Source: Anaerolineales bacterium
GTDB taxonomy: Bacteria > Chloroflexota > Anaerolineae > Anaerolineales > Villigracilaceae
Reading direction: 5' to 3'
NCBI GenBank assembly: GCA_023382575.1
Contig: JAHDWC010000003.1
Location: 872 to 52,314, forward strand
Length of the DNA: 51,443 nt
Shown here: one piece after another, positions 32,985 to 40,915 of the stretch
Layout of the letters: every line of letters begins with the position of its first letter
Position numbering within the stretch: position 1 is the first letter of the stretch
The notes under the pieces: generated by a model
Told to the model about the DNA's origin: nothing
Databases searched by the model: none
Seen by the model: the letters and a program-made list of their open reading frames with translations, nothing else
Made by a program: the position numbers and the translations under genes

Positions 32985-33200
32985 ATGAGCGACGAAAAAC
33001 GCAAATCGATGCGAGATAAACTTCCGCCGGAAGCAGTGGAACACATGAAAGCTGCCCATCAGGAAATGCGCAAGAGCATGGAGACGATCCTCCCGCCCGG
33101 CTTCTTGGAACACCGCCGCGCCGCGCGCAAGGAAATGTTGCTCGCCTTCCGCAGTCTGATCGATGCTGCCATCAAAAAGACGGAAGAAAAATCTGCATAA
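32985..33200 (+). CDS. Small charged helical protein
   Basis: A 71-residue, strongly charged, predicted all-helical protein (MSDEKRKSMRDKLPPEA at the start). The ribosome site AAAGGAG lies 7 nt upstream, and a terminator follows. No recognised family; the amphipathic helices suggest a small binding or structural protein. Confidence 0.75.
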   Translation: MSDEKRKSMRDKLPPEAVEHMKAAHQEMRKSMETILPPGFLEHRRAARKEMLLAFRSLIDAAIKKTEEKSA

Positions 33201-33203
33201 AAT

Positions 33204-33232
33204 AAAACGCCCAGCTAACGCTGGGCGTTTTT
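33204..33232 (+). terminator. Terminator after the small helical protein
   Basis: A stem AAAACGCCCAGC / GCTGGGCGTTTT of 12 bp with a 4-nt loop and Ts, placed between converging genes; it may work in both directions. Confidence 0.8.
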
Positions 33233-33237
33233 GATTC

Positions 33238-34926
33238 TTATCGAAACGGACGTTTTCCTCGTGCAAGGAAAACGGTGTAAAACAATGCAACTCCCGCCCC
33301 GCCGAATAGACCTTGCCCAAGCAGGATATGGCTATCGTACAAAATCGCGCCGGCGATCAACAACCCCAAAAACACAATGCCACCCGTCAGCCGATTGAGC
33401 GACCTTTCCAAATAACTGATCTGCAGATTAACCAGCGGCGCTTCCACATTCAACTGTCCGCGCTCGATGCGGCCCAGGACACGTTCTGCTCTGCCGGGGA
33501 TGGCGATGAGGGTTTTAAGGAGCCCACCGGCTTCATCCAAAAACGTATCAAAGAAGGAGCCACCTTCGCCCTCGGTTAATTTCTTTGCATAAGGAGCAAG
33601 TTGCAACCAAAGGTTGAAATCTGCGTTCAAGCCGGTACACATGCCTGAAAGAATTCCAATGCTGCGCCCCAAAAGCAAAAGATTTTCTGGAATCTGAAAC
33701 GGCATGGAGGTCATCAGCTCGCGGAATTGCAAGCCGAACTTCATCATGTCGCTGTGCTGGATGCTGCGTAACTCGTTCATGCTTTTGCCCCAGAAGCGGT
33801 CAAAGACTTGGGCGCTGGCTTCTTCCAACAATTTGATATTTGCGCTTGGAAGCAAAACACCCAAGGTTTGATATGCCCTAATCAGCCTTGATGAGTCTTG
33901 CAGCCCCACCGCAATGACCACCTCCCGCAGACCTTCGACGAGTTTATCGGGCATGCGTCCCACCATGCCAAAGTCAATAAACGTCAGGCGGAATTTGGTA
34001 AAGCCATCCGCGTCCTTTTCATCCAACGGTAGGACAAACAAATTTCCGGGATGCGGGTCAGCATGGAAAAACCCATCTTCGAAAATTTGCTTTAGATAGG
34101 TTGCCAATAAACGTTCCGCCACTGCGGCGCGACTGATACCCGCGGACGTGATCGCGTCGTAATCTGTGATCTTGATGGAGGTGACATCTTCCAACGTCAA
34201 CACGCGGCGTGTGGTGCGATTCCAGATCACACGCGGAACGTGAACGCCTCCATCGTCTTTGAAGTTGGTTGCAAAGGTCTCGGCATTTTTCCCTTCTGAT
34301 AAATAGTCCAGCTCCGCATTCAGGACGGCGGCGAATTCCTCCACAATGGCAGGGACATCCGCCCGGTCGCTGACGGGTTTGTAGCGTTTGAGCCAACCGC
34401 CCACCACCCGTATCGCAGACATGTCCACTTCGACGATCTGCTCGATGTTCGGGCGCAGGATCTTTACGACGACGTTTTCAAAGCCCATCGCTTCGGCTTC
34501 GTTCGGAAGTAACTTCGCGCGGTGGACTTGCCCCAACGAGGCGGCGGCGACGGGTTCTTTCTCAAAGGTAAGAAAAACTTTTTCGATGGCAGAATCAAGC
34601 TCGAGTTCGGTTTGGAGGCGGATGGGTTCAAATTCCACGGGCGGAACTTCATCCTGCAATCCAGAAAGTTCATCCGTGATCTCTGGCGGCAGGACATCCA
34701 AGCGCGCCGATAGGAACTGCCCAACTTTGATCATCACGCCACCGAGATGAATTGCCAAGGCGCGGAAACGAATGGCAATATTTTGCAGCCGCCGCGGACG
34801 GGTATTCTTTGCCCAAGCGCCCAACCCAATACGCCGCAAGAAAATATCCCAGAAAATTATGCTCGCTGTTACGCGGGCAAAGAACAGAACGATGCGCCAA
34901 TAACGCACTCGCAAAATGGTTTTCAT
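33238..34926 (-). CDS. ABC1/UbiB/AarF-family kinase-like protein
   Basis: A 562-residue protein of the UbiB/ADCK family of atypical kinases. It shows the KVGQ segment (VMIKVGQFLSARLD), the Ala-rich nucleotide loop AAASLGQVHRA, the Lys in VVVKILRP, the catalytic FHADPHPGNLF, and the metal-binding IDFG. Two membrane helices end the protein (about 505-560). UbiB homologues act in isoprenoid-quinone or lipid metabolism at membranes. I chose the ATG at 34926 because GGAGG lies 5 nt upstream; a start at 34980 would add 18 residues without such a site. Confidence 0.9.
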   Translation of the reverse strand: MKTILRVRYWRIVLFFARVTASIIFWDIFLRRIGLGAWAKNTRPRRLQNIAIRFRALAIHLGGVMIKVGQFLSARLDVLPPEITDELSGLQDEVPPVEFEPIRLQTELELDSAIEKVFLTFEKEPVAAASLGQVHRAKLLPNEAEAMGFENVVVKILRPNIEQIVEVDMSAIRVVGGWLKRYKPVSDRADVPAIVEEFAAVLNAELDYLSEGKNAETFATNFKDDGGVHVPRVIWNRTTRRVLTLEDVTSIKITDYDAITSAGISRAAVAERLLATYLKQIFEDGFFHADPHPGNLFVLPLDEKDADGFTKFRLTFIDFGMVGRMPDKLVEGLREVVIAVGLQDSSRLIRAYQTLGVLLPSANIKLLEEASAQVFDRFWGKSMNELRSIQHSDMMKFGLQFRELMTSMPFQIPENLLLLGRSIGILSGMCTGLNADFNLWLQLAPYAKKLTEGEGGSFFDTFLDEAGGLLKTLIAIPGRAERVLGRIERGQLNVEAPLVNLQISYLERSLNRLTGGIVFLGLLIAGAILYDSHILLGQGLFGGAGVALFYTVFLARGKRPFR

Positions 34927-34996
34927 GAAGCCTCCATGCGGGGTAATTGTAGTCCGGTTCTTCAATCGCTTGTAGGACAAGTCTACAGATTCCTCC

Positions 34997-35026
34997 TTGA
35001 CAACTCATCACACTCTCATGTAAACT
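34997..35026 (+). promoter_or_regulatory. Promoter of the ABC-exporter leader (TTGACA-N18-TAAACT)
   Basis: A perfect TTGACA at 34997-35002 and TAAACT at 35021-35026, spaced by 18 nt. Transcription would start near 35033 and cover the 24-codon ORF, the terminator and the ABC genes. It is divergent from the UbiB-family gene. Confidence 0.65.
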
Positions 35027-35065
35027 GCGAAGGTAATCAAATCTCAAGAAAGGAGCGCGCTTCAA

Positions 35066-35140
35066 ATGTCGTTACATCTTCTTCGTAAGAAAGCCAACCG
35101 AAAACTCAATCTACTCGAAGTGCGCCCGTTGACCGTTTAA
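35066..35140 (+). CDS. 24-residue leader peptide, candidate attenuator ORF
   Basis: An ATG with AAGGAG about 10 nt upstream opens 24 codons, ending TAA at 35140. The peptide begins MSLHLLRKK, is rich in Leu and basic residues, and ends LEVRPLTV. It stands between a good promoter and a perfect terminator, and the next gene is an ABC exporter. The codons near its end (TGCGCC at 35121-35126) can pair with the terminator's left arm, as expected for a ribosome-controlled switch. A small stand-alone protein is the alternative. Confidence 0.5.
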   Translation: MSLHLLRKKANRKLNLLEVRPLTV

Positions 35141-35167
35141 CTACGGATCAATTTCCTGTGTCTTTCC

Positions 35168-35198
35168 AAAACACGGCGCACCCTGCGCCGTGTTTTTT
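35168..35198 (+). terminator. Attenuator-type terminator before the ABC exporter genes
   Basis: A 13-bp perfect stem AAAACACGGCGCA / TGCGCCGTGTTTT with a CCC loop followed by TT. It ends 21 nt before the first ABC start codon. The competing upstream segment TGCGCC-C-GT (35121-35129) can pair with the left arm (35173-35180) with one bulged C. Confidence 0.85.
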
Positions 35199-35219
35199 AT
35201 TGTCAAAACGGAATTAACC

Positions 35220-36965
35220 ATGAACCTCTCATTCAAATCCTACTGGAACCTGCTCTCTGACCACATCCGCCCTCAGCGCGGACGGTTCATCCTGCTTGCC
35301 GCTCTGCTGTTTGGCAGCATCGGCTTGCGCATCGTCGCTCCGCAGATCATGCGCCTCTTCATCGACGACGCACTGGCAGGCGAAGCCCTCTCCGCGCTCA
35401 TGTGGACAGCCGCGGCATTTATCGGTATCGCGCTGGTACAACAAGTCGTTCACATCGGTGTGACCTACCTCGGCGAAAACGTAGCATGGACCGCCACCAA
35501 CGCCCTGCGTGCCGAACTTGCCGAACACGCCCTCAAACTCGGCATGAAGTTTCACAACGACCACACGCCCGGCGAGTTGATCGAACGCATCGACGGTGAC
35601 GTGACCGAGTTGGCAACCTTCTTCTCGCAGTTCGCGCTCAACCTCATCGCGAACGGACTTCTGCTCATCGGTATCCTCGTCACGCTTGCCATCGAAGATT
35701 GGCGCGTGGGCTTGGCGTTCGCAGTTTACTCCGCGCTGACCATCGGCATTCTCGGCAGGCTCAAAGATATTGCTGTGCCGCATAAAAAAGCGAGGCGCGA
35801 AGCCGAAGGTCAGATGTATGGCTTCATCGAAGAACAACTGGCAGGCACAGAAGATATCCGCTCAAGCGGCGCGGTCGGATTCTCCATCCGCGAACTCTTC
35901 CGCCATCAAGCCGAGATTCTCAAACACAACCGCCGCGCCCATTTCAAGCGCTGGATCATCGAAAACGCGATGGGGCTTGCGCTCACCACTGGCACTCTGC
36001 TCGCCATCACCAGCGGATACTGGCTATTCACCGCAGGCGTCGTCACCATCGGCACGGTCTATCTTTTCGTTCACTATCTCAACCTGCTCGAAGAACCGTT
36101 CTGGGCGATGACGCACGAGATCGAAAGTTTCCAAACCATTGGCGCGTGTGTGGAACGCCTGACCGAGTTCAAGCAATTCCAACCTGAAACCAAGAACGAA
36201 ACAGGCAAAGTGATCGACTCGCATCCGCTCGCGTTGGAATTCAAGGATGTGACTTTCTCGTACAACGGCGAAGACTCGGTCATCAAACGCCTCTCTCTGG
36301 ACCTCAAGCCTGGTTCTGTTCTCGGTTTGCTGGGTCGCACCGGAAGCGGAAAGACCACCCTCGGACGCTTGATATTCAACCTGTACTCGGTCAACGAAGG
36401 CAGTATCAAAATCAACGGCGAAGACTTGCATAACATTCAACTCGACTCACTGCGGCAGAACATCGCCATCGTGACACAAGATGTACAACTCTTCCGCGCG
36501 TCCATCCGCGAGAACCTGACCTTCTTCGACCGTTCGATACCTGACGAAAAGATCATCGCCACGCTCGAGGACCTCGAACTCGGCGACTGGTTCCGAACCC
36601 TGCCGGACGGTCTGGACACTCAACTGGAAACAGGATCAAGATCCTTGTCCGCGGGTGAGGCGCAATTGCTGGCATTCACGCGAGTCTTCCTGCGAAATCC
36701 CGGTCTGGTCATCCTCGATGAAGCCTCATCCCGGCTTGACCCTGCCACCGAGCAGAAACTCGAACACGCGATAGACAAACTGCTGCAAGGACGCACCGCC
36801 ATCATCATCGCGCACAGACTCGACACCCTGCACCGCGCCGACGATGTGCTCATCCTCGACAACGGCTCCGTGCTCGAATACGGCAACCGCAAAGAACTGG
36901 CAGCCAACCCGAACGCAAGGTTTTATCAATTGCTGCAAACGGGCTTGGAAGAAGTGCTGGCATAA
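35220..36965 (+). CDS. ABC exporter half-transporter, first subunit
   Basis: A 581-residue type IV exporter half: six membrane helices (about 20-320) followed by the ATPase domain. Walker A GRTGSGKT (372-379), Walker B LVILDE with catalytic Glu501, and the switch His532 are intact. The signature is altered to LSAGE (476-480). Adjacent half-transporters with complementary changes form heterodimers such as BmrCD and LmrCD, which export drugs or lipids. I chose the ATG at 35220; the GTG at 35190 lies inside the terminator stem. Confidence 0.93.
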   Translation: MNLSFKSYWNLLSDHIRPQRGRFILLAALLFGSIGLRIVAPQIMRLFIDDALAGEALSALMWTAAAFIGIALVQQVVHIGVTYLGENVAWTATNALRAELAEHALKLGMKFHNDHTPGELIERIDGDVTELATFFSQFALNLIANGLLLIGILVTLAIEDWRVGLAFAVYSALTIGILGRLKDIAVPHKKARREAEGQMYGFIEEQLAGTEDIRSSGAVGFSIRELFRHQAEILKHNRRAHFKRWIIENAMGLALTTGTLLAITSGYWLFTAGVVTIGTVYLFVHYLNLLEEPFWAMTHEIESFQTIGACVERLTEFKQFQPETKNETGKVIDSHPLALEFKDVTFSYNGEDSVIKRLSLDLKPGSVLGLLGRTGSGKTTLGRLIFNLYSVNEGSIKINGEDLHNIQLDSLRQNIAIVTQDVQLFRASIRENLTFFDRSIPDEKIIATLEDLELGDWFRTLPDGLDTQLETGSRSLSAGEAQLLAFTRVFLRNPGLVILDEASSRLDPATEQKLEHAIDKLLQGRTAIIIAHRLDTLHRADDVLILDNGSVLEYGNRKELAANPNARFYQLLQTGLEEVLA

Positions 36966-36970
36966 AAATA

Positions 36971-37053
36971 TTAAACACGAAGGACACAAAGGGCACTAAG
37001 GAAAACCTTTGTCACACCTTCCCCTTTGTATACTTCGTGTCCTTTGTGTTTAA
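36971..37053. repeat. Intergenic imperfect inverted repeat, copy 1
   Basis: The left arm TTAAACACGAAGGACACAAA and the right arm, read in reverse complement TTAAACACAAAGGACACGAA, form an imperfect palindrome between the two ABC genes. Related arms recur at 38,880-38,964. Confidence 0.7.
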
Positions 37054-37068
37054 AGACAGGTATTTAAA

Positions 37069-38874
37069 ATGACCGAAACAACCCTCACCCCAAAAGACCT
37101 CAACATCCCCGCCCTGCCCGCGTGGAAAGTTGTGCTCGAACTCATCCGCTTTCGCCCCTGGCTCTGGTTCGTGGACCTCGTCAGCGTTGCGCTCATCCGC
37201 TTCTGTTGGCAGGTTGCGCCCGCGCTCATCATCAAAGCCTTCTTCGACTATCTGACAGGCGCAGCGCCACTCACCTTTGGCATCTGGGCAGTCGTCGCGT
37301 TCCTCGTCGCCACCTGGCTCGGACGTGTCCTCGCCAGCTACGGCTTCTACTACGCCGACGTGCCCATCTTCGCAGACATGGGCACGCTGTTGCGCAAAAA
37401 TTTGTTGACGCACATTCTCAAACGCCCTGGCGCATCACAACTGCCCGACTCAGCAGGTGAAGCAGTCAGCCGCTTTAAGACTGATGTACAAGAGTTGCCG
37501 CTCTTCGTCATCCTTATCAATGATGTTTTTGTCGGGCTTTCCATCATCGCCTATTCGATTTACCTGATGACTCAGATCAGTCCATCGGTTACGATCATGG
37601 CGCTCATTCCGCTGGTCATCGTCGGCATCGTTGCCAATATCGCCACCAAACGCATCGAGCATTATCGCAGCGCCTCGCGTCAATCTGCTGGAAAAGTGAC
37701 AGGCTTCATCGGTGAATTTTTTGGCGCAGTGCAAGCCGTGAAGATCGCCACCGCCGAAAAGAACATCATCAATCACTTTCACAGCATCAACGATGAACGC
37801 CGCAAGTTAACTGTCCGCGAAAAACTTTTTGATGAAGTGCTCGGCTCGCTTTATCGCAACACGTCTACACTCGGCACCGGTGTCATTCTGATTCTCGTCG
37901 GTCAGTCCATGCGCACGGGCAACTTCACCCTCGGCGATTTCTCGCTCTTCGTCTATCTCCTCCAAAGCATGGGCGACCTCACCACCTTCGGCGGTATGCT
38001 CTGGGCGCGTTACAAACAAATGGATGTCTCCGTCAAACGCATGTACCGCCTGATGGAAAATGCCCCGCTGGATGCGCTCATTGAAACTGCAAAAATTGAT
38101 CTGGATGGCAGCCTGCCTGAGGTGACCTACCCGACCAAAACCGCCTCAGACCGACTGAACGAACTGGTCGCTGACCATCTGACCTTTCACTACCCGAATT
38201 CGGTCAACGGCATCGCAGACATTTCGCTCAAAGTCAAACGCGGCTCGCTGACGGTTATCACCGGTCGCATCGGCTCTGGAAAAACGACATTGTTGCGCAC
38301 ATTGCTGGGTCTGCTCCCCGCCGACTCAGGCGAAGTCCGCTGGAATGGGCAAGTCATCACCGACGCTAGCAATTTCTTCGTCCCGCCGCGTGTGGCTTAC
38401 ACCGCGCAAGTACCGCGTTTGTTCAGCAACACCCTGCGGAATAATATTCTGCTTGGCATGAACAAAAGCGATGACGACATCTACAAAGCCACCAAACTTG
38501 CCGTCATGGACAGAGACCTAGAAATCCTCGACGACGACCTCGAAACAATGGTCGGCTCACGCGGAGTCAAACTCTCTGGCGGACAAGCCCAACGTACCGC
38601 AGCCGCCCGCATGTTCATCCGCGAACCCGAGCTGATCGTCTTCGATGACCTCTCCAGCGCGCTGGATGTGGAAACCGAACGTCAACTTTGGGAGCGCATC
38701 TTTGAATCAGGCAACGAACTGACCTGTCTCGTCGTCTCCCATCGTCGTCCGCTCTTGAGGCGTGCCGATCACATCATCGTGCTCAAAGACGGCAAAGTCG
38801 AATCCGAAGGCACGCTCGAAGAACTCTTGGAAAAGAGTCACGAAATGCGCGAGCTTTGGAAATTGGAAGAATAA
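37069..38874 (+). CDS. ABC exporter half-transporter, second subunit
   Basis: A 601-residue half-transporter with six membrane helices and an ATPase domain. Walker A GRIGSGKT (399-406), canonical signature LSGGQ (502-506) and His558 are present. The catalytic Glu after Walker B is replaced by Asp (FDD, Asp527). With the first subunit this predicts one normal ATP site (its own LSGGQ with the partner's Glu) and one degenerate site. The two genes are separated by an inverted repeat but lie on the same strand. Confidence 0.93.
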   Translation: MTETTLTPKDLNIPALPAWKVVLELIRFRPWLWFVDLVSVALIRFCWQVAPALIIKAFFDYLTGAAPLTFGIWAVVAFLVATWLGRVLASYGFYYADVPIFADMGTLLRKNLLTHILKRPGASQLPDSAGEAVSRFKTDVQELPLFVILINDVFVGLSIIAYSIYLMTQISPSVTIMALIPLVIVGIVANIATKRIEHYRSASRQSAGKVTGFIGEFFGAVQAVKIATAEKNIINHFHSINDERRKLTVREKLFDEVLGSLYRNTSTLGTGVILILVGQSMRTGNFTLGDFSLFVYLLQSMGDLTTFGGMLWARYKQMDVSVKRMYRLMENAPLDALIETAKIDLDGSLPEVTYPTKTASDRLNELVADHLTFHYPNSVNGIADISLKVKRGSLTVITGRIGSGKTTLLRTLLGLLPADSGEVRWNGQVITDASNFFVPPRVAYTAQVPRLFSNTLRNNILLGMNKSDDDIYKATKLAVMDRDLEILDDDLETMVGSRGVKLSGGQAQRTAAARMFIREPELIVFDDLSSALDVETERQLWERIFESGNELTCLVVSHRRPLLRRADHIIVLKDGKVESEGTLEELLEKSHEMRELWKLEE

Positions 38875-38879
38875 AATAC

Positions 38880-38964
38880 TTAAACACAAAGGACACCAAG
38901 CTCACGAAGGTGGTCGAGTGACGACTTAAACCTCGTTCCTTCCTTCGTGCCCTTCGTGGTAAAA
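38880..38964. repeat. Intergenic imperfect inverted repeat, copy 2
   Basis: The left arm starts TTAAACACAAAGGACACCAA; the right arm in reverse complement reads TTTTACCACGAAGGGCACGA. It is related in sequence to the element at 36,971 and lies after the second ABC gene. Confidence 0.65.
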
Positions 38965-38974
38965 GGTTTTTAAT

Positions 38975-39397
38975 ATGACAACTTCAAATGAATTAATCCG
39001 CATAGCACGCGAAGCCTTCAACCTAGCCATCGCCGAAAAAGACGCCAAACGCATCCGCCCGCTGCTGGCAGCGAGTTATCATCTGATCACCGGTCGCAGC
39101 GACCAGTTCCACGGAGCCGACGAGGAAGAAATACGTTGGGCTGAGCTTTTCAAACAAGACCCAACCGCCATCTATCGTCGAACCCCGCGCGAGATCACCG
39201 CCAATGAAGCTTGGGGCATCGCCGAAGAACTCGGCAAGTGGCAAGGCGAGTATTCGATCAACGGAAATCTCGTTCGCGCCTCGGGCGTCTACGCCGCCAA
39301 ATGGCAACGCACCACACAAGGCAACTGGGTTTTGCAGGCAGAAATTTTCACTACAATTAAGTATGACGAAGCCTGCATCCCGCCTGATCCTTTATGA
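38975..39397 (+). CDS. SnoaL/NTF2-like domain protein
   Basis: A 140-residue protein with the pattern of the NTF2/SnoaL-like fold: N-terminal helices (IRIAREAFNLAIAEKD), then beta strands with GRSDQFHGADEEEIRWAELF and a late AAKWQRTTQGNWVLQAEIF. Such proteins bind small ligands or act as simple enzymes; no substrate can be named. It sits between two repeats, ahead of rtcB. Confidence 0.7.
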   Translation: MTTSNELIRIAREAFNLAIAEKDAKRIRPLLAASYHLITGRSDQFHGADEEEIRWAELFKQDPTAIYRRTPREITANEAWGIAEELGKWQGEYSINGNLVRASGVYAAKWQRTTQGNWVLQAEIFTTIKYDEACIPPDPL

Positions 39398-39398
39398 T

Positions 39399-39482
39399 AT
39401 GTCATTGCGAGCCGCGCTCCTTGCGGCGAAGCAATCTCTCAATAAGGAGGTTGCTTCGGGCTGTCGCCCTCGCAACGACATG
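39399..39482. repeat. Palindromic REP-like element
   Basis: The outer arms ATGTCATTGCGAG / CTCGCAACGACAT and inner arms GAAGCAATCTC / GGAGGTTGCTTC build a long stem-loop in the space before rtcB. Elements with the same TCATTGCGAG...GAAGCAATCTC wording are known as dispersed repeats in many bacteria. Confidence 0.75.
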
Positions 39483-39493
39483 GAGAATTAGAA

Positions 39494-40915
39494 ATGGACA
39501 TCATCACAGGAAAAATCCTGAAACTCAACAACTGGGAAGACGGCAAATCCATCGGACTTGCCAAAGAAGCCGGGAACAAAATGATCGCCTCCGGCATGGA
39601 CCGCGACGTGGCTCTTTCCGCGCTCGAAGCGGTTCGCGCCAACCCGGGCAACTTCCTCGCCGATAGTTTGCTTGCAGACCTCGCCCGCGAGATTCTGCGC
39701 AAGAATAAGAACAATGAGCTAACCGAAGAAACCCTGCGCGAGTCACCCCTGCCCTTCCCCATCTGGGGCACGGACCACATCGAAACCGAAGCCATCCGCC
39801 AAATGGAAAACGCCATGCGCCTGCCCGTGACCGTCACCGGCGCGCTCATGCCCGATGCCCATGTCGGCTATGGTCTGCCCATTGGTGGTGTGCTGGCGAC
39901 TGAGAACACCGTCATCCCCTACGCCGTTGGCGTGGACATTGCCTGCCGTATGCGCTTGTCGCTATACGAAGTCTCACCGATTCTCATCGGGCAAAAGAAA
40001 GGCATGTTCGAAAACGCCCTTTGGGACGAAACCGCCTTCGGCATGGGCGCCGCTTGGAAAGGCAGCAAACGCGCCCAGCACCCCGTCCTCGACGACGATG
40101 CCTGGCTCGCCACCAAACAACTGCGGACTCTAAAAGACACCGCCATGAATCAACTTGGCACCAGCGGCACGGGCAATCACTTCGTAGAGTGGGGTTCGTT
40201 CCGCTTGCATGAGCCGATGTTCGGCTTACAGCCCGGTGAATACCTTGCCCTGCTCTCGCACAGCGGATCCCGTGGAGTCGGCGCGAAGATCGCCGACCGC
40301 TTCAGCAAACTCGCAAGAGAAAAGCATCCCGATCTTGATCCCAGTGTCAAACACCTCGCGTGGCTCACATTAGATTCGGAAGATGGTCAGGAATACTGGC
40401 TTTCGATGGAACTGGCAGGTCGCTTTGCTTCGGCGAATCACTATATTATTCACAAGCGGGTGGCGGCGTCTGTTGGGCTGAAAGAAGTTGCAGTGGTAGA
40501 GAATCACCACAACTTTGCCTGGCGCGAGAAACTGCCGGATGGGCGCGAAGTCATCGTCCACCGCAAGGGAGCCACGCCCGCGGGTGCTGGCGTTCTCGGC
40601 GTGATCCCCGGCTCGATGGGAGATGCAGGCTTCGTCGTCCGCGGAAGAGGCGTGAGCGAGTCGCTCGAATCCGCTTCACATGGGGCGGGTCGGCGCATGA
40701 GCCGCAAGGCTGCCATCAACTCCATCAGCAAGCGCGAACGGGACGACTACCTCAAAGAGCGCGGAGTCACCCTGCTCGGCGGCGGCATTGACGAATCGCC
40801 GCAGGCATACAAAGCCATTGATGAGGTCATCACCGCCCAGAACGATCTGGTGGATGTGGTTGGCAAGTTCACCCCGCGCATCGTCCGCATGGCGGATGAG
40901 CCGGGCGATATTTAG
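39494..40915 (+). CDS. rtcB: RtcB-family RNA ligase
   Basis: RtcB joins RNA 2',3'-cyclic phosphate or 3'-phosphate ends to 5'-OH ends using GTP and manganese. The 473-residue protein shows MPDAHVGYGLPIGGV, the metal-binding Cys in GVDIACRMR, GNHFVEWG, SHSGSRGVG, GATPAGAG and the guanylation His396 in SHGAGRRMSR. All key residues are in place. GGAG lies 8 nt upstream of the ATG. A typical role is repair or healing of cleaved RNA; no archease or RNA-cyclase gene is adjacent. Confidence 0.94.
   Translation: MDIITGKILKLNNWEDGKSIGLAKEAGNKMIASGMDRDVALSALEAVRANPGNFLADSLLADLAREILRKNKNNELTEETLRESPLPFPIWGTDHIETEAIRQMENAMRLPVTVTGALMPDAHVGYGLPIGGVLATENTVIPYAVGVDIACRMRLSLYEVSPILIGQKKGMFENALWDETAFGMGAAWKGSKRAQHPVLDDDAWLATKQLRTLKDTAMNQLGTSGTGNHFVEWGSFRLHEPMFGLQPGEYLALLSHSGSRGVGAKIADRFSKLAREKHPDLDPSVKHLAWLTLDSEDGQEYWLSMELAGRFASANHYIIHKRVAASVGLKEVAVVENHHNFAWREKLPDGREVIVHRKGATPAGAGVLGVIPGSMGDAGFVVRGRGVSESLESASHGAGRRMSRKAAINSISKRERDDYLKERGVTLLGGGIDESPQAYKAIDEVITAQNDLVDVVGKFTPRIVRMADEPGDI

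Follow-up and report, generated by a model that had tools for sequence, protein, structure and literature searches.

A predicted ribosome-sensing attenuator ahead of an ABC exporter gene pair is one copy of an RNA family spread through the Anaerolineae

Introduction

What is the role of a short open reading frame (ORF) and a terminator that together stand between a promoter and two ATP-binding cassette (ABC) exporter genes? The question is raised by a locus in a 51,443-nucleotide stretch of DNA from an Anaerolineales bacterium (contig JAHDWC010000003.1 of assembly GCA_023382575.1, positions 872 to 52,314 of the forward strand; the whole stretch is called the window below), in which a 24-codon leader ORF and an intrinsic terminator precede the genes of two exporter subunits, ABC1 and ABC2 (Table 1). 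Attenuators that sense ribosomes are known from individual genes, most of them in Firmicutes and Actinobacteria, and a preliminary description of the window, made from its letters, had proposed drug-responsive attenuation at this locus. Comparative sequence analysis and folding indicate that the cassette is probably a ribosome-mediated transcription attenuator for the exporter pair, which would sense ribosomes held near the leader start codon.

Results

Conservation of the cassette upstream of ABC1 orthologues

A scan with the ABC1 protein yielded 46 loci, and the cassette, comprising the ORF, the complementary segments and the terminator, was found at all 37 Chloroflexota loci of ABC1 orthologues that have upstream DNA. 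These loci were found via the protein and not via the RNA, and this conservation counts in favour of an attenuator; a search for the ORF and the competing stems upstream of orthologous ABC pairs had been proposed in the preliminary description. Five of the other nine loci (L047, L051, L053, L056 and L057) are cut at a contig end, three (L059-L061) are weak or partial relatives and stand outside the cassette count, and no such cassette was seen in Paenibacillus (L058). The nearest relatives (L016, L019 and the partial L055), with proteins that are 96% identical, include genomes labelled Anaerolineales and Villigracilaceae.

The promoter, the ribosome site, the 24-codon ORF and the 13-bp terminator are all present in the window as first described. 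It should be noted that neither promoter nor terminator, taken alone, is above chance between positions 33000 and 40000, where 3 promoter-like sites (consensus scan; 3.5 expected) and 8 terminator-like sites (9.4 expected) were counted. Both are judged to be real because they are conserved in orthologues, and not by local counts; an exact TTGACA lies 52-55 nt ahead of the ribosome site in 35 of 38 leaders, the window counted (the exceptions are L026, L033 and L042). At four loci (L022, L025, L037 and L048), palindromic repeats of the GTCATTGCGAGGAGCG...GACGAAGCAA type lie between the terminator and ABC1, and the spacer there measures 124-137 nt and not 23.

Three mutually exclusive helices

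In the consensus of the 38 aligned orthologous leaders, the window included (alignment A1), segment 1 (GCGCACTTC), located between the ribosome site and the start codon, is complementary to segment 2 (GAAGTGCGC), which lies close to the end of the ORF and is complementary also to the left arm and loop of the terminator (segment 3). The set of helices consists of an anti-antiterminator (segments 1 and 2, or 1:2), an antiterminator (2:3) and the terminator (3:4). The complementarity of TGCGCC to the terminator left arm had already been pointed out and is confirmed, with the motif located at 35121-35126; segment 1 and the small hairpin at the leader stop codon had gone unmentioned.

Within A1, 1:2 is paired in 94.4% of cells and 2:3 in 90.9%, compared with at most 55.6% and 55.3%, respectively, for slid controls, and 3:4 is paired in 100% of cells, with 46 changes on both sides versus 17.5 when shuffled. 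A further alignment (A3) holds 97 more diverse elements fitted to a model with the pairs of 1:2 and 3:4 and without those of 2:3; the base pairs of 2:3 are absent from both search models used in this work, and the letters of both segments were included. Here, 2:3 is paired in 85.7% of cells (slid controls, at most 58.5%); 6 of its 8 pairs show changes on both sides, which amount to 21 cells versus 6.4 shuffled, a score reached by 0 of 500 shuffles, and 1:2 is paired in 84.5% of cells (slid controls, up to 70.5%), with both-side changes in 24 cells versus 6.7 shuffled. These shuffle controls are uncorrected for relatedness, and related sequences may beat shuffles without any structure, so that covariation is support and not proof, because kinship alone could exceed the shuffles. 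With this qualification, the predicted antiterminator and anti-antiterminator, which exclude one another, are backed by covariation, and an intrinsic terminator is predicted between the leader start and the gene. In most of 8 leaders folded, the stop-codon hairpin and a second small hairpin fold within the antiterminator as a three-way junction.

The leader ORF and its stop codon

Across the family, an ORF read from the expected start covers segment 2 in 152 of 154 elements, compared with 37 and 64 of the 152 in which the frames shifted by +1 and +2 are open; the two exceptions, L091 and L184, have start codons beyond the columns searched, and both have ORFs in another ORF listing. Segment 2 and the stop codon are separated by a median of 10 nt (range, 1-37); in 138 of the 152 the distance is 8-22 nt, so that a terminating ribosome would cover segment 2. 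Leader ORFs are 16-36 codons long, and a short leader ORF with a ribosome site appears to be under selection. The shortest of the 152, with the 16-codon leader MIAAKFPSSRSALEGL and the same RNA segments, occurs in a single lineage (L145 and L044).

Of these 152 leaders, 135 read segment 2 in frame 0, 15 in frame 2 and 2 in frame 1; the frame-2 set consists of nine leaders of class A, the window's leader type (the window among them), together with RsgA, RIO1 and ABC leaders. Since segment 2 is read in differing frames, the SRSAPVDR ending of the peptide would reflect RNA and descent, and what is kept is the ORF and the position of its stop codon. In class A, the N-terminal half of the leader is variable and the C-terminal half is kept as RNA. 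A function of SRSAPVDR as a C-terminal arrest peptide is not favoured, given the use of all three frames; frame 0 predominates, and the peptide may have some role.

The predicted position of the ribosome

For each of the 152 elements, the sequence as far as the terminator loop was folded in a static energy model, with 30 nt masked by the ribosome. In these elements, which had been picked by a model already knowing the letters of segments 2 and 3, the antiterminator formed in 146, 147, 147 and 134 of 152 with the P site on codons 1, 2, 3 and 4, respectively, and this number was down to 80 with the ribosome at codon 7; with the stop codon occupied, the terminator formed in 151. When the tails were dinucleotide-shuffled and codon 1 was masked, 2:3 appeared in 29 of 456 folds. 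The window itself folded into 1:2 without a ribosome, into 2:3 with the ribosome at codons 1-4 and 14, into 1:2 at codons 5-13, and into neither at codons 15-18. The folding points to stalling near the start codon, at codons 1-4, and not in the middle of the ORF. The competing antiterminator that the preliminary description had envisaged upon ribosome stalling earlier in the ORF is supported by the covarying alternative helices.

A class-wide RNA family

A covariance model built from the orthologues (R1) detected three strong copies in the window's own genome, namely that of the window, one (C13) ahead of a second ABC exporter pair and one (C5) ahead of two tandem GNAT-like genes. One weak match in this genome (C136, E 0.008) precedes a RIO1 kinase gene, and another, which is doubtful, precedes an ABC-F gene (L310, G000 C184:4889-5056, E 0.005). 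In the latter, a TATAAT ends 7 nt ahead of the leader ATG, which suggests a leaderless leader ORF, and segment 1 is perhaps absent. The second attenuator-linked ABC gene of this genome (L097, G000 C13) has an internal TAA that its full-length relatives lack, reflecting a broken gene or an assembly error.

A broader model (R2), built from 47 elements, has matches with E up to 0.01 in 176 of the 396 class genomes; R1 matched 36 of 298. In a draw of 301 genomes across the phylum (E up to 0.001), all 27 genomes that match R2 belong to the window's class, and none matches among the genomes of other classes, which number about 263 to judge by the order of the genomes listed; in three unrelated genomes, the best E-values were 0.06 to 0.88. 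As judged by these searches, the RNA family is class-wide and multi-copy, and the window contains one of its copies. The locus had at first been taken for an independent version in a Chloroflexota-like genome; an attenuator in a Chloroflexota genome is supported, and it is not an isolated case.

Several model matches were judged to be false: G000 C9, G027 C1:1474584 and G179 C39 come from the end of a single unrelated ORF, which has a terminator, L087 is a tRNA-like sequence, and L093 and L309 have no ORF; L206 is a doubtful element. A search of 24 loci against Rfam gave no family over its gathering score at the element, the sole match being a tRNA elsewhere in L037, and the 10 matches in the window (34900-35300, E up to 5) are each under their gathering score. 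Searches of the open literature, most subscription journals lying outside it, listed nothing that was relevant by title and abstract, either to an element of this kind in Chloroflexi, Anaerolineae or Chloroflexota or to one that precedes RsgA or RIO kinase genes; in the accessible text of PMC11264731, Chloroflexota are named once, as a label in the legend of an erm tree.

Genes behind the element

For 116 elements, 4 of which end at a contig edge, the downstream gene was taken as the longest ORF starting within 700 nt, by which the second gene of a tandem was occasionally chosen, and 112 downstream proteins were clustered. By this clustering, in which only cluster representatives were identified with Pfam and NCBIfam, there are 45 ABC exporters, 33 GNAT proteins of several kinds, 9 RsgA, 7 ABC-2-type (DrrA-like) ATPases, 6 RIO1 kinases, 4 ABC-F proteins and 4 HAD hydrolases; the remaining 4 are a methyltransferase, an ABC-2 permease, an RtcB whose gene follows a broken ABC gene and one protein of no assigned kind. 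The ABC-F proteins of L192 and L164 exceed the cut-off of the ribosome-protection family NF000355, and the truncated one of L089 is under it. In the reverse direction, R2 matches were sought beside given genes in 60 genomes of the class. An element was found beside 6 of 14 RIO1 genes and 0 of 30 era genes scanned, the latter a part of a longer list (Fisher P 0.0004); no training sequence is among the RIO1 cases.

Heterodimeric exporters of the BmrCD and TM287/288 kind have one canonical and one degenerate ATP site. ABC1 has a canonical Walker B motif (LDE) and ABC2 has FDD (Table 1), and, as adjacent half-transporters of this heterodimeric type, the two would together give one canonical and one degenerate site. 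PDB matches, of which the best 60 were shown, include TM_0288 and YheH for ABC1 and YheI for ABC2; YheH and YheI are BmrD and BmrC. The pair is likely to be a drug pump.

Tandem terminators

A second terminator occurs within 110 nt in 41 of 114 elements, compared with 1 of 114 after one letter shuffle each, and its stem often repeats the sequence of the first (e.g., L084, L091, L149, L155, L167 and L176). In 39 tandem cases, the mean pairing energy of arm 4 with arm 5 is -15.8 kcal/mol, compared with -12.2 kcal/mol for arms swapped between elements and -13.4 kcal/mol for the best of 38 rotations of swapped arms. The terminators are stronger (means, -20.7 and -18.6 kcal/mol), and thus, a relay through this pairing would need to win by order of synthesis; simple duplication could account for the matching stems. 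Directly after the window's own terminator, the terminator scan from 33000 to 40000 lists no second one.

Features and neighbours of the cassette

Table 1. Parts of the cassette and the exporter genes in the window.
Feature	Position	Strand	Remarks
Promoter, sigma-70-type TTGACA-N18-TAAACT	34997..35026	+	TTGACA 34997-35002, TAAACT 35021-35026
Leader ribosome-binding site AAAGGAG	35049..35055	+	Read in the window; kept in alignment A1
Segment 1, GCGCGCTTC	35055..35063	+	Left arm of the predicted anti-antiterminator; between ribosome site and start codon
Leader ORF, MSLHLLRKKANRKLNLLEVRPLTV, 24 codons	35066..35140	+	Window translation; spans segment 2
Segment 2, GAAGTGCGCC	35117..35126	+	Switch segment within the ORF, shared by both alternative helices
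Small hairpin surrounding the leader stop codon	35129..35151	+	Paired in 85.3% of cells versus at most 48% in slid controls; folds
Conserved CTGTG	35156..35160	+	Could pair with CACGG of the terminator left arm, in the antiterminator junction; pair counts and folds, no control
Segment 3, ACACGGCGCACC	35171..35182	+	Left arm and loop of the terminator; pairs with segment 2 in the predicted antiterminator
Intrinsic terminator, 13-bp stem 35168-35196 and T-rich tail	35168..35203	+	Right arm is segment 4
ABC exporter subunit 1 (ABC1), 581 aa	35220..36965	+	Walker B LDE, signature LSAGE
ABC exporter subunit 2 (ABC2), 601 aa	37069..38874	+	Walker B FDD (Glu to Asp), signature LSGGQ

On the upstream side, a UbiB-like kinase gene (33238-34926, minus strand), which scores under the UbiB cut-off, is oriented away from the attenuator, and its likely ATG lies about 70 nt from the -35 box of the latter; a terminator-like hairpin (33204-33231), scored on both strands, is located at the 3' side of this gene. 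Downstream of the ABC pair and of a 140-aa ORF without Pfam or NCBIfam match lies an RtcB RNA ligase gene (PF01139; 39494-40915, plus strand), and an RtcB-like gene is likewise found behind the element L149.

Discussion

The proposed attenuator would work as follows. During normal translation, the ribosome would cross the 24-codon leader and cover segment 2 while terminating, leaving 3:4 to stop transcription ahead of ABC1. If no ribosome were bound, segment 1 would pair with segment 2, and the terminator would again be free to form. A ribosome that is initiating or held early, on codons 1-4, would mask segment 1 and leave segment 2 free, which would then take the left arm of the terminator (2:3), so that RNA polymerase would read into the exporter genes. 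Inhibitors of translation, or stresses, that keep ribosomes on or close to the start codon would be the likely inducers. The comparison of sequences shows the ORF, the three alternative helices, the place of the stop codon, the family and the genes that accompany it. We infer that termination and readthrough occur, where the ribosome would stall and which drugs would cause it; drug sensing by the attenuator is strongly suggested.

Several results weigh against this mechanism or against its extension to the whole family. Within the orthologues of A1, the covariation of 2:3 is weak, its score being reached by 59 of 500 shuffles. Without a ribosome, the minimum-energy fold holds the anti-antiterminator in 69 and the antiterminator in 77 of 152 elements, so that the ribosome-free OFF state is not uniformly predicted, although it is predicted for the window. 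In the reverse test, the element lies beside 2 of 30 RsgA genes scanned (31 found), of which one is a training sequence and the second a weak match (P 0.49 versus era), and beside 1 of 30 ABC-F genes scanned, a part of a longer list, and neither result is significant; thus, most such genes are without a detectable element. Class A leaders have no conserved arrest motif, a lack that start-proximal stalling would also fit. Lastly, the macrolide arrest motif R/K-X-R/K (+X+) is enriched in one of six leader groups, the mixed "other" leaders (16 of 46 versus 8.9 shuffled, P 0.005).

The last point leads to the explanation that is next to be considered, although it is an unlikely one, namely a peptide-specific drug sensor in which the nascent leader with a bound macrolide arrests the ribosome in the middle of the ORF, as in ErmDL and MefAL, so that the pump would answer one drug class. 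Such a sensor would be in keeping with the basic character of class A leaders (24% Lys and Arg, compared with 9% in classes B and C), with the RKK at residues 7-9 of the window's leader, which the preliminary description had emphasized, and with the flavour that leader types keep according to the downstream gene, B being partly PDAVGK and C hydrophobic. However, +X+ was found in 11 of 42 distinct class A leaders versus 20.6 when shuffled, and it was not raised in the B, C, RIO1 or RsgA leaders, so that five of the six groups tested are without excess. The motif was therefore rejected as the sensor of the window's leader type, and the emphasis on RKK is not supported for this type. The N-terminal halves of the leaders are, moreover, poorly conserved, and in the window's fold a stall at codons 5-13 leaves segment 1 free for pairing. 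Given the excess among the "other" leaders, a peptide-specific sensor may act in some members of the family.

The abundance of Arg and Lys codons in class A leaders might also suggest an attenuator of the trp or his type that responds to arginine or lysine starvation. This is very improbable, as the other leader groups, which share the chassis, have only 7-12% Arg and Lys, the downstream genes encode exporters, GNAT, RsgA, RIO1 and ABC-F proteins and not biosynthesis, and the leaders listed have no run of a single codon at a fixed place. The conservation of the RNA beyond the peptide and the reading of segment 2 in all three frames would be expected of a metabolite riboswitch or a protein-bound RNA switch with an incidental ORF; the presence of the ORF over segment 2 in nearly all elements, its closely placed stop codon, the diversity of the downstream genes and the Rfam result leave this with only a slight probability. 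Least probable of all is an independent ABC promoter behind an ordinary terminator or a small RNA gene, with which the local terminator counts would agree, but not the conservation of three mutually exclusive helices and an ORF across the class.

Beyond the attenuator itself, it is conceivable, albeit speculative, that one Anaerolineae RNA chassis couples exporters, acetyltransferases, RsgA, RIO1 kinase and ABC-F, as a ribosome-stress regulon of the whole class, to ribosomes held at leader start codons, with a domino extension in about a third of the elements. In the domino, the second terminator would repeat the stem of the first, and the formation of 2:3 would free arm 4 to capture arm 5, disarming the second terminator; 1:2, 3:4 and 5:6 would represent the off state and 2:3 and 4:5 the on state. 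The family described here would itself be a single one, definable by a covariance model and reused before many genes in a class with few cultured members. It provides a computational handle on inducible, ribosome-related and resistance-type genes in the Anaerolineae, and it draws attention to RIO1 kinase as a candidate bacterial gene of ribosome stress and, with less confidence, to RsgA.

The mechanism would be of a known kind, and the element would work like the leaders of vmlR and bmrB, although nothing points to a shared ancestry with either. The bmrB-bmrCD system of Bacillus subtilis, like the locus described here, has a translated leader ORF, a terminator, an antiterminator and a predicted anti-antiterminator ahead of a multidrug ABC exporter pair (PMC4191407), and its likeness extends to YheH and YheI among the PDB matches of ABC1 and ABC2. 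It differs in its 53-aa leader, its growth-phase control by AbrB and the location of its terminator inside the coding region (PMC4191407), whereas the terminator in the window lies 27 nt past the leader stop codon; no relation in sequence or RNA family to bmrB is shown. The original assertion of exactly the bmrB layout thus holds for a leader-peptide attenuator with a competing antiterminator before an exporter pair, but not for the terminator, and vmlR is closer in mechanism.

Leader peptides and attenuation also precede the efflux and ABC-F genes mefA and msrD, where, in contrast, the arrest is macrolide-specific, with a +X+ motif in MefAL and a stall at the stop codon in MsrDL, and the stalled ribosome itself obstructs the msrD terminator (PMC10314930). 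In E. coli, the upstream ORF (uORF) toiL ahead of topAI senses several drug classes, and tetracycline and retapamulin stall the ribosome at its start codon; regulation, however, is by translational repression and Rho-dependent termination, without an intrinsic terminator (PMC12121999). According to the same source, the drugs to which vmlR, cplR and vga(A) respond probably cause start-proximal stalling as well. The ABC-F gene vmlR of B. subtilis shares with the present family a uORF, an anti-antiterminator at the uORF, an antiterminator and an intrinsic terminator; it is induced by ribosomes stalled on the uORF, and variants of the uORF sequence still work (PMC9226507). It has, in addition, NusG-dependent pausing and an extra hairpin that hides the ribosome site of the gene, and its uORF has three codons (PMC9226507), compared with the 16-36 codons of the ORFs described here, in which segment 2 lies inside the ORF end. 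Finally, vmlR regulation has been described for one gene in Bacilli, whereas the element described here occurs in many copies throughout a class, ahead of different genes.

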